From contig SHMQ01000038.1 in the NCBI GenBank assembly GCA_008534395.1, positions 1-23,362 of the forward strand: a stretch of DNA of 23,362 nucleotides, read 5' to 3'. Made by a program: the position numbers and the translations under genes. This document shows positions 2,660 to 9,912 of this stretch, piece by piece (position 1 is the first letter of the stretch; every line of letters begins with the position of its first letter). Origin of the DNA: Candidatus Acidulodesulfobacterium acidiphilum. Lineage in GTDB: Bacteria > SZUA-79 > Acidulodesulfobacterales > Acidulodesulfobacteraceae. Under the pieces are notes generated by a model. It had not been told where the DNA came from. It saw nothing but the letters and a program-made list of their open reading frames with translations, and made no database searches.

Positions 2660-3817
2660 ATGAATGTAGATTTAGTCGTTTCTAAGAACGATAATTTTAA
2701 AAAAATGCTGTCATACGGACAAAGTCCATGGCTAGATAATATTTCAAGATGCATGATAGATTCGGGCGACCTTGAAAAATTAGTTAAAAACGGCGTTATT
2801 ACAGGCATAACGTCAAATCCTTCCATATTTGAAAAATCGATTAATTCGGGAAAATGCGGCTATCCCGAAAAGATTAAAAAACTTGCGGCGGATAAATTAA
2901 CTCCGTTTGAAATATACGATACCATAACAAGGGAAGATATAAAATCTGCGGCTCAAATACTTAAACCGGTTTACGAAAAATCCGGCGGCAAGGACGGATT
3001 CGTGAGCATAGAAGTTTCTCCGGATATAGCAACCGACGCCAAGACTTCGACGGAAGAAACTCTTAGGATTTTTTCGCTTATAAACGAAAAAAACATTCTT
3101 ATTAAAATACCGGCTACTAAAGAAGGATTGGAAATTATACCCGCTCTTATAGCTAAGGGAATCAATATTAACGTTACTTTGATGTTTTCTTTAAAACATT
3201 ATATAGACGTAGCCAATGCTTATATAAAAGGATTAAAAACGGCTTATGCCAACGGCTATAATTTATCCGGCATACATTCGGTCGCAAGCATTTTTATCAG
3301 CAGGGTAGATACTATGGTCGATAAAACGATTAACGATTTAATTAACGTCGAAGCGGCAAGCAATACCGCAAAAAAAGAGAAACTTGCCGGTTTAATCGGA
3401 AAAGCCGGAGTTGCAAATTCTAAAATAATTTTTAATAAATTTAACGAAATTTTTAACGGCGGCGATTTTTCGGCATTAAAATCTAAGGGCGCAAATCCTC
3501 AAAGACTCTTGTTTGCAAGTACCAGCACAAAAAACCCGTCATATTACGATTTGAAATACGTCGAGCCGTTCATAGGCAAAGATACCGTAAACACTTTGCC
3601 GGACGAAACTATAGAGCATATTGCCGACCACGGTAATATAATGCCGGATACGGCTTCATTAGAGTTTGACGAATCGTTGAAAATAGTTAACGAACTTATG
3701 GAATTAGGAATTGATTTAAATAAGGTCGGAGATAAACTTCAAAACGACGGAGTAAAATCTTTTGAAGATGCTTACGAAAAACTTTTGCAATCGATAAAAA
3801 ACACTGCGGGGATTTAA
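2660..3817 (+). CDS. tal: Transaldolase
   Basis: Transaldolase transfers a dihydroxyacetone unit from sedoheptulose 7-phosphate to glyceraldehyde 3-phosphate in the non-oxidative pentose phosphate pathway, in the cytoplasm. The 385-residue length fits the long bacterial type (about 360-390). Visible motifs are SPWLDNISR (22-30), GVITGITSNPSIFEKS (45-60), SIEVSPDIATD (116-126) and IKIPATKEG, in which K149 is the Schiff-base lysine. ATG is set by a strong AGGAGG (2646-2651) 8 nt upstream. Transketolase follows 72 bp downstream on the same strand, so the two are probably cotranscribed. The protein ends without the glucose-6-phosphate isomerase domain that some transaldolases carry. Confidence 0.96.
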   Translation: MNVDLVVSKNDNFKKMLSYGQSPWLDNISRCMIDSGDLEKLVKNGVITGITSNPSIFEKSINSGKCGYPEKIKKLAADKLTPFEIYDTITREDIKSAAQILKPVYEKSGGKDGFVSIEVSPDIATDAKTSTEETLRIFSLINEKNILIKIPATKEGLEIIPALIAKGININVTLMFSLKHYIDVANAYIKGLKTAYANGYNLSGIHSVASIFISRVDTMVDKTINDLINVEAASNTAKKEKLAGLIGKAGVANSKIIFNKFNEIFNGGDFSALKSKGANPQRLLFASTSTKNPSYYDLKYVEPFIGKDTVNTLPDETIEHIADHGNIMPDTASLEFDESLKIVNELMELGIDLNKVGDKLQNDGVKSFEDAYEKLLQSIKNTAGI

Positions 3818-3889: not shown

Positions 3890-5827
3890 ATGGATTTAAA
3901 AAGAAATTTTGAAGCGGATAAACTTGGCGAGAACGAATTAAAAATTTTAAAGGATTTTACTAAAAAATGCCGCGGCGACATTTTAAAAATGACTACTATT
4001 GCATCTTCCGGACATCCGGGCGGTTCTATGTCGTCGATAGATATTTATGCAGTATTGTACGGTTTTTGCAATATAGACCCTAAAAATCCATTTAAACCCG
4101 AAAGAGACCGTATCATAGTAAGTCATGGACATACTTCGCCGGGCGTTTATTCCGCTCTTGGAAATTACGGATTCTTTGACGTCGAAGATGCAATTATATC
4201 TTTTAGGACAGCAGGCTATCCGTTTGAAGGACATATAGAAAAAACCGTGCCGGGAGTAGAATGGGATACAGGCAACCTTGGGCAGGGTCTTTCAGCGGCA
4301 TGCGCATTTGCTTTAGCCTCCAAACTTCATGGATACGATAATCATGTTTATTGCGTTATGGGCGACGGAGAGCAGGCTAAAGGTCAAATAGGCGAAGCAA
4401 GAAGATTTGCGGTTAAATATAAATTGAATAACCTTACCGTAATCGTCGATAAAAACGGACTTCAAATAGGCGGTAAAACAGTTGACGTTATGCCCGATAA
4501 TATCGAAGAAAATTTTAAAGCCGACGGATTTCACGTTATAACGATAAACGGGCATGATTTTAACGAAATTTACGCAGCTATAAAACAGTCGCATTCAATA
4601 AATTCTCCCGTTGCTATAATAGCTAACACCGTTATGGGAAAAGGCGTTTCCTTTATGGAAAACCAAGCTAAATTTCACGGAGCTACTTTAAATATCGAAG
4701 ACTGTAAAAAAGCCCTTGCGGAGTTAGGCGAAAAAGATGATTTAGATGAAATTATAGCTAAAAAGAAAGCAGGTTTTAGCATAAAACCTCTTTCTAAAAG
4801 AAATAATAATTTCTTAGTCTTAAAAGACGAAGGAAAGAAAATAGTTTATACCCGCGAAAAGAACACGGATAACCGTTCAGCTTTCGGAAACGCTCTTGCC
4901 GATATTGCAAATACTTATAAAGAAAAAAACGGCGAACAAAAAAATCTTCCTTTTGCGGTATTCGACTGCGACTTAGAAGGATCGGTAAAAACCGGAGCAT
5001 TTAGAAAAGCTTTTCCGGATAATTTTTTTGAATCCGGAATAGAAGAACACAATACGGCGGTAATTTCAGGCGCGCTTTCAACGGATAATATTCTGACTTT
5101 TTTTGCTGATTTTGGAGTTTTCGGAGTGGACGAAACATACAACCAGCAAAGATTAAACGATATTAATCATACAAATCTTAAAGTAGTCTGTACGCATTGC
5201 GGTATAGACGTCGGCGAAGACGGAAAAACCCACCAATGCATCGACTACTTCGGGCTTCTTAACTCTACTTTCGGATTTAAAGTTATATTGCCTGCAGACC
5301 CAAACCAGACTGACAGGGTAACGAGATATATTGCGCAAAATGAAGGAAATTTTGGAGTAATAATGGGAAGGTCTATAATTCCCGTAATACTTGACGAAAA
5401 CGGCAAACCTTTTTTCGGCGAAAATTATGCATTTAAATACGGCAAAATGGATTTAATCAGAGACGGCAAAGATGTTGCGATAATATCTACGGGCAATATG
5501 CTGCCGCATGCTTTAAAAGGCTGGGAAATGCTTAAAAAAGAGGGTATAAGCGCGATGCTTTTAAACGTATCGTGTCCCAGCGACATAGACGTCCAAGACT
5601 TAAAACTTGCCGCTAAAACTGGATTAATAGTAACGATAGAAGATCATAACGTTAAAACGGGGGTAGGAACTTCTATCGGTTCAATGCTGGCAGAAAACGG
5701 AATATCCGTAAAATTTAGAAAAATGGGAGCAAAGTTTTACAGTTCATCGGGCAAACCGGAAGATTTATACAAACTCGCAGGTTTATCCCCCGAAGACCTA
5801 TATAATTTCGTTAAAAAAGAAATATAA
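3890..5827 (+). CDS. tkt: Transketolase
   Basis: Transketolase moves two-carbon ketol units between sugar phosphates using thiamine diphosphate. The 645-residue single chain contains both halves. In the N-terminal half are SSGHPGGS (39-46), SHGHTSPGVYS (78-88), GNLGQGLS (128-135) and the thiamine/metal motif MGDGEQAKGQ (157-166) with NN at 180-181. In the central half are SGIEEHN (382-388), with the catalytic glutamate probably E386, and VGEDGKTHQ (441-449). The C-terminal domain follows. An AGAGGT site sits about 9 nt before ATG. It closes the plus-strand pair with transaldolase and converges on zwf across a long hairpin. It would link the oxidative branch opposite to glycolytic intermediates. 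Confidence 0.96.
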   Translation: MDLKRNFEADKLGENELKILKDFTKKCRGDILKMTTIASSGHPGGSMSSIDIYAVLYGFCNIDPKNPFKPERDRIIVSHGHTSPGVYSALGNYGFFDVEDAIISFRTAGYPFEGHIEKTVPGVEWDTGNLGQGLSAACAFALASKLHGYDNHVYCVMGDGEQAKGQIGEARRFAVKYKLNNLTVIVDKNGLQIGGKTVDVMPDNIEENFKADGFHVITINGHDFNEIYAAIKQSHSINSPVAIIANTVMGKGVSFMENQAKFHGATLNIEDCKKALAELGEKDDLDEIIAKKKAGFSIKPLSKRNNNFLVLKDEGKKIVYTREKNTDNRSAFGNALADIANTYKEKNGEQKNLPFAVFDCDLEGSVKTGAFRKAFPDNFFESGIEEHNTAVISGALSTDNILTFFADFGVFGVDETYNQQRLNDINHTNLKVVCTHCGIDVGEDGKTHQCIDYFGLLNSTFGFKVILPADPNQTDRVTRYIAQNEGNFGVIMGRSIIPVILDENGKPFFGENYAFKYGKMDLIRDGKDVAIISTGNMLPHALKGWEMLKKEGISAMLLNVSCPSDIDVQDLKLAAKTGLIVTIEDHNVKTGVGTSIGSMLAENGISVKFRKMGAKFYSSSGKPEDLYKLAGLSPEDLYNFVKKEI

Positions 5828-5890: not shown

Positions 5891-7393
5891 TTACGCTATA
5901 TTATTCCATTCCCTGCCGTCCGCGCTTATAAGTTCGTCTGCCTCTTTCGGCCCCCAGGAACCTGCATCGTAATTTGGAAAAACGGGCGGCTCCATTTTCG
6001 ACCAGCCGTTCATTATGGACGTAATCAACTGCCATGCTATAAGCATGTCGTCGTATCTTGCAAAAAGAGTCTGGTCTCCAAGTATAACATCGTATATTAG
6101 GCGTTCATAAGCATCCGGAGGGGACAGCCTGAAAGACGACTTGTAGTTGAATACCATACAGACAGGTTCTATATCCATAACGAAACCCGGTTTCTTTGCG
6201 CCTATATTTATAGATATTCCTTCATTAGGCTGAATCGTTATAATTATAGAGTTCTGCTTTATGTTTTCAATGCCCGCCTTGCTAAATAAACTATATGGAA
6301 GTTTTTTAAAATAGACCGCTATTTCCGTTTTATGCGTCTTTAATCTTTTTCCTGCCCTTAAATAGAATGGAACTCCGGCCCATCTATAATTATCGACGTA
6401 TAGTTTCATAGCCGCATACGTATCGGTAATAGAATTTGCGTTTATCCCTTCTTCTTCCTTGTAGCTTACAACCTGCTTACCGTCGATTACACCCCTGTCA
6501 TACTGCCCTCTGACGGTATACTTCTTTACGTCGTTAAGACTAAGAGGTCTTACGCTTTTTAATAACTTCACTTTTTCGTTCCTTATGTCGTCGGCATCGA
6601 ACAAGGCCGGCGGCTCTATGGCTACCAATGAGAGAAGCTGCATCATATGATTCTGCATCATATCTCTGATAGTTCCTGATTTGTCGAAATATCCTGCCCT
6701 AAGTCCGACGCCTATCGATTCTAATGCCGATATCTGTACATGGTCTATATATTTATTATTCCAAATAGGTTCAAATATTGCGTTTGAAAACCTGAATGCA
6801 AGAATATTCTGGACGGTTTCTTTGCCGAGATAATGGTCTATCCTGTAGATATCTTCCTCTCTGAATACGGTCAATAAATGTTCGTTGAGTTCCTTTGCGC
6901 TTTTATAATCATATCCGAAAGGTTTTTCTATTACTATTTTTGAAAAACCGCCGCCTTTAAAGTCTTCCGATATTAAATTACCATTTTTTATACCTTCTAT
7001 AGCATCGTTATAAACGCTCGGCGGAGTAGAAAGATAATAAACTATATTTTTATCGATTTTATATTCGTTAGATTTAGATGTTATAAATTTACCTAATTCG
7101 ATATAACTTTCAACCTTATCGTATAAGGAAGGTAAGTAATAAATATGTTTTGAAAAATTTAAAAAGTCGTCTTCGCTTATAGGTCTTTTCCTGCAATGAC
7201 TGTTTAAGGACGCAAATATAGATTTTCTGAATTCTTCATCGTTCATTTTTGTCCTTGCAAAACCCACTAAAACGAATGATTCGGGAAAAAAACCTTCTTC
7301 CCACAAACTATAAAGAGCGGGAAATATTTTTATATGGGCAAGGTCTCCGCTTGCGCCGAAAATTACAATTATAGATGGTTTTAAATCTGCCAT
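5891..7393 (-). CDS. zwf: Glucose-6-phosphate 1-dehydrogenase
   Basis: This enzyme oxidises glucose 6-phosphate to 6-phosphogluconolactone, the first step of the oxidative pentose phosphate pathway. The 500-residue length is normal. The N-terminal Rossmann fold has FGASGDLAHIK (12-22). IEKPFG lies at 155-160. The substrate motif RIDHYLGKE at 184-192 includes H187 and K191, and RDMMQNH (243-249) supplies the catalytic histidine H249. A GGAG ribosome-binding site precedes ATG by 6 nt. It lies last in the minus-strand run after the cyclase-family hydrolase and 6-phosphogluconate dehydrogenase, with spacers of 100 and 47 bp. Cofactor preference cannot be read confidently from the sequence alone. 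Confidence 0.96.
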   Translation of the reverse strand: MADLKPSIIVIFGASGDLAHIKIFPALYSLWEEGFFPESFVLVGFARTKMNDEEFRKSIFASLNSHCRKRPISEDDFLNFSKHIYYLPSLYDKVESYIELGKFITSKSNEYKIDKNIVYYLSTPPSVYNDAIEGIKNGNLISEDFKGGGFSKIVIEKPFGYDYKSAKELNEHLLTVFREEDIYRIDHYLGKETVQNILAFRFSNAIFEPIWNNKYIDHVQISALESIGVGLRAGYFDKSGTIRDMMQNHMMQLLSLVAIEPPALFDADDIRNEKVKLLKSVRPLSLNDVKKYTVRGQYDRGVIDGKQVVSYKEEEGINANSITDTYAAMKLYVDNYRWAGVPFYLRAGKRLKTHKTEIAVYFKKLPYSLFSKAGIENIKQNSIIITIQPNEGISINIGAKKPGFVMDIEPVCMVFNYKSSFRLSPPDAYERLIYDVILGDQTLFARYDDMLIAWQLITSIMNGWSKMEPPVFPNYDAGSWGPKEADELISADGREWNNIA

Positions 7394-7493: not shown

Positions 7494-8120
7494 TTATTTC
7501 TGCAAAATAACTCTTGCGGGAGCGCCGTTAGAATCTTTAATTTTTACGGGAAGAGCCATTAAGTAATAATCGCCTGGTTCTACGCCAAACAGATTAAGTC
7601 CCTCTATAATAACGACGCCGGCGCCGAGCAGAGTTTTGTGGGTATCGTGACCTATATGATAACCTTCTACCGAAAGGTAATCGACTCCGACAAGCGCTAC
7701 TCCTTTTTCAACCATATATTTTGACGCTTCGGGATTTACGTAAACGTAATCTGTGCGGAAGTTTTTATCTCCGCTGTTTATCCACTCCGAATTTTTTGTT
7801 TTAAAAAGAAGCCTGTCGCCTTTTTTTATATTCAAAGGCTCTAAAAACTCCTTGTTGATAGGCGAAACTATAGACGGCACTTCTATTACCCTGCAATTAC
7901 CTATTAAATTATTTATGTCTAATCCGTCTATTCCGATTCCGTCATCGACAAAATGTTTTGGAGCATCTATATGCGTACCGGTATGAACCCCGCAGGTGAT
8001 TTTACTGTTGTTTGCCGCAGCCCCTTTTTTTATCTGAGAATAATTATCTATCTCTATAACGGGATCACTCGGCCAGTGCAGCATACCGTCCGTTATTTCC
8101 ATACTTACGTCGATAAACAT
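7494..8120 (-). CDS. Cyclase-family metal-dependent hydrolase, possible lactonase
   Basis: This 208-residue protein belongs to the cyclase / kynurenine formamidase-like family (PF04199 type), whose members hydrolyse amides or open rings using bound metal. The signature HTGTHIDAPKHF (46-57) supplies metal ligands H46, H50 and D52 plus H56, and the later HKTLLGAG and VIIEGLN supply H161 and E173. An AGAGGT ribosome-binding site precedes ATG. It lies between gnd and zwf on the same strand, where organisms often encode 6-phosphogluconolactonase, and no conventional gene for that step is seen here. Hydrolysis of 6-phosphogluconolactone is therefore an attractive inference, but the family also includes arylformamidases and isatin hydrolases, and nothing in the sequence proves a sugar-phosphate substrate. 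Confidence 0.85.
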   Translation of the reverse strand: MFIDVSMEITDGMLHWPSDPVIEIDNYSQIKKGAAANNSKITCGVHTGTHIDAPKHFVDDGIGIDGLDINNLIGNCRVIEVPSIVSPINKEFLEPLNIKKGDRLLFKTKNSEWINSGDKNFRTDYVYVNPEASKYMVEKGVALVGVDYLSVEGYHIGHDTHKTLLGAGVVIIEGLNLFGVEPGDYYLMALPVKIKDSNGAPARVILQK

Positions 8121-8167
8121 AATATGACCTCTTTAATTTTATTTTTATTACGATTTTTTACATTTTA

Positions 8168-9058
8168 TTAATGTATAGGATGTCCGCCGAACTGGTGTCT
8201 TAAAGCGGCAAGCATTCTTGCGGAAAATGAGTTTTCCTGTCTCGACCTGAAGCGCATAAAAACCGAATCTGCAAGAACTGGAGCAGGAACGGCTCTGTCT
8301 ATAGCTTCTTGCACAGTCCATCTTCCTTCGCCCGAATCGTCGACGATAGGTTTAAGACCGTTAAGTTCAGGATCTTCCTTAAGTGCGTTATGGGCAAGCT
8401 CTAATAGCCATGAGCGAACTACGGAAGCATGATTCCATAAATCTGAAACTTTAGTAAGATCAATATCAAAATCGCTGGCCTTCATAATTTCAAAACCTTC
8501 GGCATATGCTTCCATCATACCGTACTCTATGGCGTTATGAACCATCTTAACAAAATGTCCGGCGCCGTGCGGTCCTGTATGCATGTAACCGTTTTCGGGA
8601 GCAAGCGTTTTAAATATAGGCTCGCAGTGTTTAAATGTTTCTTCGTCGCCTCCTATCATAGAACAGTATCCGTTTTTTAATCCCCATATGCCGCCGCTTG
8701 TACCGCAATCCATAAACTTAATATTTTTATCGGCGCATACTTTTGCCCTTCTTATAGAATCTTTATAGTAGGAATTACCGCCGTCTATAACTATGTCTCC
8801 GTTTTGCGTGTATTGCAAAACTTCGTTAAGCATATCGTCCGTAGGCTGTCCTGCCGGAACCATAAGCCAAATTACTCTCGGAGATGTTAACTTAGAAACA
8901 AACTCCTTTATGGAATTTGAACCTATAGCGCCTTTGTTTATAGCTATTTCTTCTTTGGATAAGGTTCTGTTGAAAACTACTACTCTATGTCCGCCTTCAA
9001 GCAGTCTGAAAACCATATTCATCCCCATCTTTCCAAGGCCTATCATTCCTAATTCCAT
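8168..9058 (-). CDS. gnd: 6-phosphogluconate dehydrogenase, short decarboxylating type
   Basis: The enzyme oxidatively decarboxylates 6-phosphogluconate to ribulose 5-phosphate. At 296 residues it is the short form (about 300, YqeC/GntZ-like) and lacks the long C-terminal duplication of the 470-residue enzymes. Visible motifs are GMIGLGKMGMN (4-14, dinucleotide fold), IDGGNSYYKDS (91-101), DCGTSGGIWG (117-126) and VKMVHNAIEYGMMEAYAEG (170-188), with catalytic K171 and N175. The loop after the second strand reads FNRT (29-32), which in this family usually goes with NADP rather than NAD; that is inference. AAAGGAGGT gives a very strong ribosome-binding site. It is followed by the hydrolase and zwf on the same strand. 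Confidence 0.94.
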   Translation of the reverse strand: MELGMIGLGKMGMNMVFRLLEGGHRVVVFNRTLSKEEIAINKGAIGSNSIKEFVSKLTSPRVIWLMVPAGQPTDDMLNEVLQYTQNGDIVIDGGNSYYKDSIRRAKVCADKNIKFMDCGTSGGIWGLKNGYCSMIGGDEETFKHCEPIFKTLAPENGYMHTGPHGAGHFVKMVHNAIEYGMMEAYAEGFEIMKASDFDIDLTKVSDLWNHASVVRSWLLELAHNALKEDPELNGLKPIVDDSGEGRWTVQEAIDRAVPAPVLADSVFMRFRSRQENSFSARMLAALRHQFGGHPIH

Positions 9059-9129: not shown

Positions 9130-9912
9130 TTACGAATTATTATTTTGTTGAGAATTTCCGCTTAAACTTTTACCTACTTCCCTTATAATATCTAACGGTA
9201 TCGGCATTATCATAGTAGTATTATTAGTAGATGAAATTTCATTCAACGTCTGCAAATATCTCAGCTGAAGAGCCATAGGATTTTCAGCTATAATTTTAGC
9301 CGCATCGCTTAGTCTTTGCGCCGCCTGAAATTCTCCGTCGGCGTTAATTATCTTTGCCCTTCTGTCCCTTTCTGCCTCAGCCTGTCTTGCCATAGCTCTT
9401 TGCATATCCTGCGGCATATCTATCTGTTTAAGCTCTACGACTGTTACTTTAACGCCCCATGGCCCTGTATGTTTATCGAGTATGTCCTGAATTTCCATAT
9501 TAATTTTTTCTCTTTCCGATAAAAGTTTATCAAGTTCTCCTTCGCCGCATACGCTTCTTAAAGTGGTCTGCGCAAGCTGAGATACTGCATAATTATAATC
9601 GTAGACTTGTACAATTGCATTAAGAGGATCAACTACTTTATAATAGACCACTGCACTTATTTTTAAAGTTACGTTATCTTTCGTAATAACGTCCTGCGGC
9701 GGTACATCGAGAGTAATTATCCTTAGGGTCACTCTTACCATTCTGTCTATTACCGGCCAAAGAAGAATTATACCGGGGCCCTTAACTTTTATAGCCCTGC
9801 CGAGCCTGAATATTACCGCCCTGTCATATTCCGCTATTATTCTTACAGCATTTAAAATAACGATAATTGCGACTATTATAACGACCGCAAAAAAAATTGC
9901 GCTGTCTCCCAT
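9130..9912 (-). CDS. Stomatin-like SPFH-domain membrane protein (slipin)
   Basis: This 260-residue protein has one N-terminal membrane helix (about 5-24). An SPFH/Band 7 domain follows, recognisable from [13 protein letters not shown] (28-40), [16 protein letters not shown] and [23 protein letters not shown] helical stretch rich in Ala, Glu and Arg ([16 protein letters not shown]) probably drives oligomerisation. Slipins scaffold membrane microdomains and usually work with an NfeD-family partner, which is encoded 92 bp upstream on the same strand. AAAGGAG lies 6 nt before ATG. It could be cotranscribed with gnd downstream (71-bp gap). The family assignment is strong; the client protein is unknown. 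Confidence 0.93.

Follow-up and report, generated by a model that had tools for sequence, protein, structure and literature searches.

The pentose phosphate gene cluster of Candidatus Acidulodesulfobacterium acidiphilum raises the question of which gene supplies its 6-phosphogluconolactonase. The window analysed here, a stretch of 23,362 nt, is an entire contig of a 2.09-Mb genome, and the relatives of this organism are MAGs, including those of SZUA-79. In the preliminary description, a metal hydrolase encoded between gnd and zwf had been proposed as a non-orthologous 6-phosphogluconolactonase, and this idea is supported below by the absence of pgl and the conserved gene order, evidence that is genomic and not biochemical.

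The gnd-cyclase-zwf locus and its product

The clustering of zwf, gnd, tal and tkt around this hydrolase gene was borne out by profile matches. Glucose-6-phosphate dehydrogenase (zwf, 5891-7393, minus strand) matched TIGR00871 with 616 bits (cut-off 400.6). For the 6-phosphogluconate dehydrogenase, which is short and of the YqeC type (gnd, 8168-9058, minus strand), the match was to TIGR00872 gnd_rel with 405.5 bits (cut-off 297.2). Transaldolase (tal, 2660-3817; NF002881 and TIGR00876) and transketolase (tkt, 3890-5827; NF004556, 954 bits) are encoded beyond zwf on the opposite, plus strand. The hydrolase gene (7494-8120, minus strand), which encodes 208 aa from an ATG start, is in an operon-like position, co-directional with gnd 47 bp upstream and zwf 100 bp downstream, and a ribosome-binding-like site read from the sequence, AAAGAGG (8128-8134, minus strand), lies 7 nt before the ATG. 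Further upstream, an SPFH/Band-7 (HflK/stomatin-like) gene (9130-9912, minus strand) precedes gnd and is probably not part of the pathway. A stand-alone LigD 3′-phosphoesterase domain protein (PF13298) is encoded at 2230-2595 on the plus strand and adjoins tal across the class. That the window holds no recognisable pgl was likewise confirmed, a PF01182 gene being absent from the window and from the genome.

The sole Pfam match of the 208-aa protein was PF04199 (Cyclase), with 85.2 bits (cut-off 23.1), and neither the PF01182 nor the PF10282 profile matched it in the Pfam search. The HxGTHxDxPxHF motif described earlier is matched by HTGTHIDAPKHF at residues 46-57 (7950-7985, minus strand), which contributes the metal-binding residues H46, H50, D52 and H56. 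The codons of two further predicted ligands, whose metal role is inferred from homology to KynB and isatin hydrolase, are those of H161 (7638-7640, minus strand) and E173 (7602-7604, minus strand), and all six residues were invariant across all homologues compared, whether linked to the pathway genes or unlinked. By comparison, the sequence KTKNS at codons 107-111 (7788-7802, minus strand) is a signature of the pathway-linked subfamily (KTxNS): K107, T108 and N110 were present in 54 of 54 linked cyclases and S111 in 98%, against 4% for K107 and 0% for N110 in distant cyclases. The conserved basic residue R203 (7512-7514, minus strand), a candidate substrate contact, is also arginine in all 54 linked cyclases; since KynB and 79% of the distant cyclases share it, R203 is not specific to the subfamily.

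Lactonases and gene order across lineages

An ordinary pgl gene elsewhere in the genome would have refuted the proposal, and the whole-genome profile search found no PF01182 Pgl there. Nor was PF01182 matched in any of the 30 genomes of the class (SZUA-79/Acidulodesulfobacterales; 19 of high quality) by a profile search that was positive in 9 of 14 control genomes and did not cover PF08450. PF10282 matches were found in most class genomes, and the suggested search for a YbhE-type enzyme returned, in the organism's own genome, exported YNCE- or NHL-type propellers. Of these two proteins, one, of YNCE type and 483 aa, begins with what resembles a signal peptide, and the other, an NHL-repeat protein of 379 aa, begins with a membrane-spanning segment. 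The top PF10282 match of the class bears an Ig-like domain. None of the PF10282 proteins examined resembles a cytosolic YbhE. The cyclase itself was found in 28 of the 30 class genomes, including 19 of the 19 of high quality, with 58-100% identity, and the two genomes lacking it are 85-86% complete. It is flanked by gnd and zwf in all 28, as far as the contigs extend, and the Band-7 gene upstream of gnd is kept at the class loci. The anticipated recurrence of this gene order in relatives without pgl therefore holds across the class, and linkage to zwf or gnd was also observed in Patescibacteria, Clostridia and Bacilli. Because the order is kept in every class genome with the gene and recurs in unrelated phyla, the gnd-cyclase-zwf arrangement is not a matter of chance. 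In one MAG (G012) the cyclase is present twice, at loci L008 and L029, each time near gnd and hflK; the copies share 85% and 76% identity with the window protein, and the MAG is likely a strain mixture.

Through a comparison of the window protein with genome contigs, two Doudnabacteria and two further small genomes were picked up in which the cyclase adjoins gnd or zwf. From a zwf search of 286 Patescibacteria, 79 zwf-positive genomes (G032 and G033 included) were then tested for PF01182 and the cyclase. The low-scoring PF01182 proteins were read individually, and the outcome altered the cross-table of Pgl and cyclase: 16 divergent proteins were real Pgl by motif, many of them encoded beside gnd. 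Weak PF01182 matches in five genomes (G030, G035, G038, G042 and G043) were rejected as NagB. Pgl was present in 37 of the 79 genomes and the cyclase subfamily in 23, with an overlap of 0; the subfamily was thus found in 0 of 37 genomes with Pgl versus 23 of 42 without. This exclusion gave a one-sided Fisher p value of 9e-9, or of 1.2e-7 once the four genomes discovered by way of the cyclase were set aside, shared ancestry being ignored in both tests. The zwf tree offered just four independent pairs, none in the wrong direction, and the underpowered sign test was not significant; the exclusion is not independent of shared ancestry.

The cyclase gene lies near zwf or gnd in 18 of the 23 subfamily-bearing Patescibacteria, and within about 5 kb of zwf in 14 of the 19 not found through the cyclase. 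The orders observed were zwf-gnd-cyclase, cyclase-gnd-tal-rpiB-rpe facing zwf-pgi, cyclase beside zwf, and one run of zwf-gnd-pgi-ROK kinase-cyclase; in many Pgl-bearing genomes, Pgl itself adjoins zwf or gnd. Five cyclases found alongside Pgl scored 69-105 bits, lack KTxNS and group in a clade of their own, which an unlinked low scorer (G219) joins; they were left out of the subfamily. A further 19 zwf-positive Patescibacteria (L238-L254, G077 and G219 among them) have neither a PF01182 Pgl nor a KTxNS cyclase, so that such genomes either manage without a lactonase or use one of a further kind.

Several side observations were made at these loci. Fusions of zwf and gnd in a single open frame of ~780-880 aa occur at eleven Patescibacteria loci (L194, L195, L199, L201, L210, L238, L244, L246, L251, L253 and L254), some of them in genomes whose cyclase is unlinked and others in genomes without either lactonase. 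At one locus (L186, genome G049) zwf occurs twice in a span of 19 kb, once beside the cyclase and once beside gnd. Candidate cyclase-zwf Rosetta-stone fusions in G060 and G079 were rejected, the long frames being GC-rich read-through.

In Clostridia, 61 of 392 genomes searched were zwf-positive, and the cyclase was looked for in 58 of them. In 39 of these 58 it directly follows zwf in the same orientation, mostly 11-70 bp and once 953 bp past the zwf domain match. Clostridial PF01182 matches did not exceed 97 bits, all 30 loci inspected showed NagB signatures, and 17 of these genomes had no PF01182 match at all. A Clostridiaceae genome that had been included for an unlinked cyclase proved to carry a second one 20 bp after zwf.

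Among Bacilli, a Paenibacillus replicon has the order zwf-cyclase, and a mobilizable Exiguobacterium plasmid (NZ_CP040675.1, 47.5-55.4 kb; L383/L386) carries hxlA-hxlB-cyclase-HAD facing zwf-pgi-gndA. The genes on this plasmid cover every step of the dissimilatory ribulose monophosphate (RuMP) cycle except a named lactonase, and no annotated lactonase was found elsewhere on it, as far as its incomplete gene table allows. The set amounts to a near-complete cassette for a formaldehyde-oxidising RuMP cycle. A scan of viral contigs yielded one fragment. The record 'Microcystis phage MaAM05' (L387, MW495066.1, 39.5-52.2 kb) contains cyclase, eda, dehydratase and sugar kinase genes in an Entner-Doudoroff-like operon; it also holds genes for ribosomal protein L1, cysteine desulfurase and queG, and with this content the record may be of bacterial origin and misfiled as phage DNA.

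Structural relatives and exceptions to the pattern

The AlphaFold model of the cyclase is of high confidence, with a mean pLDDT of 96.6, and among solved structures it is closest to 8HMO, 1R61/3KRV, KynB and isatin hydrolase. The proteins of 1R61/3KRV (Geobacillus stearothermophilus) and 8HMO (Bacillus smithii, with Mn) are 36-39% identical to the cyclase, superpose with an rmsd of 1.5-1.8 Å over 193-198 residues and share both the metal ligands and KTxNS; their PDB titles say 'metal-dependent hydrolase', with no function assigned. In the tree, 1R61 and 8HMO nest within the Clostridial zwf-linked clade with support of 100/98. Isatin hydrolase (4J0N, 4M8D, 5NMP, 5NNA) resembles the cyclase in fold (Z 24-26) and metal site and opens a cyclic amide ring, but it is only 21-24% identical, longer and acts on another substrate. 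The classical Pgl (PF01182/TIGR01198; Pgl, DevB) shares the proposed reaction and the gene slot with the cyclase and is unrelated to it in fold and sequence. The same lack of relation in fold, without any profile match, holds for the YbhE/YkgB-type Pgl, a PF10282 beta-propeller that provides the precedent for a second, non-homologous Pgl.

The classical arrangement is seen in the pgl-zwf-YqeC-type gnd-rpiB cluster of Geobacter metallireducens (PMC2700814). Modelling of Geobacillus icigianus found 6-phosphogluconolactonase absent from the genus and suggested spontaneous hydrolysis (PMC7409357), and Thermoanaerobacter genomes were reported to have no 6-phosphogluconolactonase gene (PMC3608648). 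No link between a PF04199 cyclase and 6-phosphogluconolactonase was found in the open-licence papers searched, subscription journals not being covered.

The linked cyclases fall into several clades among unlinked near relatives and not into one supported clade, so that a single origin is neither demonstrated nor excluded. KTxNS relatives were found in three zwf-less genomes (G036, G037 and G042), and two Anaerolineaceae (G040 and G041) combine a strong Pgl with a cyclase of the same broad clade, the G040 copy having KTxNS. More widely, KTxNS cyclases at six loci (L051, L053, L059 and L061-L063) belong to Anaerolineaceae and an actinomycetote, and the KTxNS-cyclase genomes checked (G039 and G040) also carry a true PF01182 Pgl and zwf. 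The zwf-less KTxNS genomes, the Anaerolineaceae with Pgl and the 19 Patescibacteria with neither enzyme are the main weaknesses of a lactonase reading. A general sugar-lactone hydrolase with a role in more than one pathway would be compatible with each of these exceptions.

Proposed reaction and rival explanations

With these exceptions taken into account, the gene very likely encodes a non-orthologous 6-phosphogluconolactonase (EC 3.1.1.31), in the absence of any activity data. This is the best reading of the linkage to zwf and gnd in several phyla and in varied orders, the absence of known Pgl (judged by PF01182 and, within the class only, by PF10282), the way in which Pgl and the cyclase complement each other among Patescibacteria, and the membership of a hydrolase family known for opening cyclic amides and formamides. 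Linkage was observed across unrelated lineages, namely the SZUA-79 class, Patescibacteria, Clostridia and Bacilli, and the cyclase stands in place of known Pgl in the class and, uncorrected for ancestry, in Patescibacteria, with the Anaerolineaceae as exceptions. The PF04199 'putative cyclase' is thus probably a third, unrecognised kind of 6-phosphogluconolactonase, its activity being inferred. In the proposed reaction, the zwf product would make 6-phosphoglucono-1,5-lactone, and H46, H50, D52, H56, H161 and E173 of the cyclase would coordinate one or two divalent metal ions such as Mn or Zn. A metal-activated water could then attack the lactone carbonyl and open the ring to 6-phosphogluconate, which would be decarboxylated by the gnd product. 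K107-T108-x-N110-S111, perhaps with R203, may hold the 6-phosphate or the sugar hydroxyls, although no pocket placement supports this assignment. The substrate, the identity of the metal, the mechanism, the phosphate-binding residues and the role of KTxNS are all inferences.

The alternative that survives best, though we regard it as improbable, is a pathway-linked clean-up or side enzyme whose main substrate is not 6-phosphoglucono-1,5-lactone but some other product of zwf or gnd: a different lactone, an ester or a damaged sugar phosphate, with the 1,4 (gamma) lactone formed by rearrangement, phosphoerythronolactone and unphosphorylated gluconolactone as examples. Such an enzyme would account for the linkage, for coexistence with Pgl in Anaerolineaceae and for the presence in zwf-less genomes, and the Entner-Doudoroff-like operon member might use unphosphorylated gluconolactone; the avoidance of Pgl by the subfamily in Patescibacteria would nevertheless be unexpected.

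A kynurenine (aryl) formamidase or similar amide hydrolase, placed in the operon by chance, is very unlikely, even though family and fold are common to both. TIGR03035 (arylformamidase) is the sole NCBIfam match of the cyclase, and KynB (4CO9, 4COG, 4COB, 4CZ1) aligns with it at a fold Z of 27-28 and shares the HxGTHxDxPxH site and hydrolytic chemistry. The score of 144.8 bits, however, lies below the equivalog cut-off of 223.05, as do the 128-164 bits of other pathway-linked cyclases, and KynB has R-T-S-S-H in place of KTxNS and stands in another pathway context. Four separate groups show the linkage to zwf or gnd, a recurrence that chance placement cannot account for. No tryptophan or kynurenine pathway genes were recognised in the window, the only region to which this statement applies. 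Moreover, the conversion of tryptophan to kynurenine requires O2-dependent dioxygenases, which are unlikely in strict anaerobes.

That spontaneous hydrolysis suffices and the cyclase merely travels, unrelated to the pathway, within a conserved block is scarcely credible: the lactone does hydrolyse spontaneously, the account given for pgl-less Geobacillus (PMC7409357), and 19 Patescibacteria have zwf and neither enzyme, but linkage in the differing orders gnd-cyclase-zwf, zwf-cyclase, zwf-gnd-cyclase, cyclase-gnd-tal-rpiB-rpe and hxlAB-cyclase is not explained by passive inheritance of one block.

Collectively, we consider it likely that the PF04199 proteins with KTxNS form a third non-homologous class of Pgl with a broad role in the oxidative pentose phosphate pathway of many Clostridia, Bacilli including Geobacillus, several Patescibacteria lineages and SZUA-79/Acidulodesulfobacterales, that they have been recruited to dissimilatory RuMP and Entner-Doudoroff pathways, and that their structures already exist without a function in the PDB (1R61, 3KRV and 8HMO). 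If so, the enzyme would close a gap in central metabolism hitherto attributed to gene loss and spontaneous hydrolysis in Geobacillus (PMC7409357), and would correct the reading of the Thermoanaerobacter pathway as broken (PMC3608648). Genome-scale models and annotations would change for Clostridia, thermophilic Bacilli and Patescibacteria, many genes now called 'cyclase family protein' or 'kynurenine formamidase' would receive new names, and structures already solved would acquire a function that a simple assay could test.
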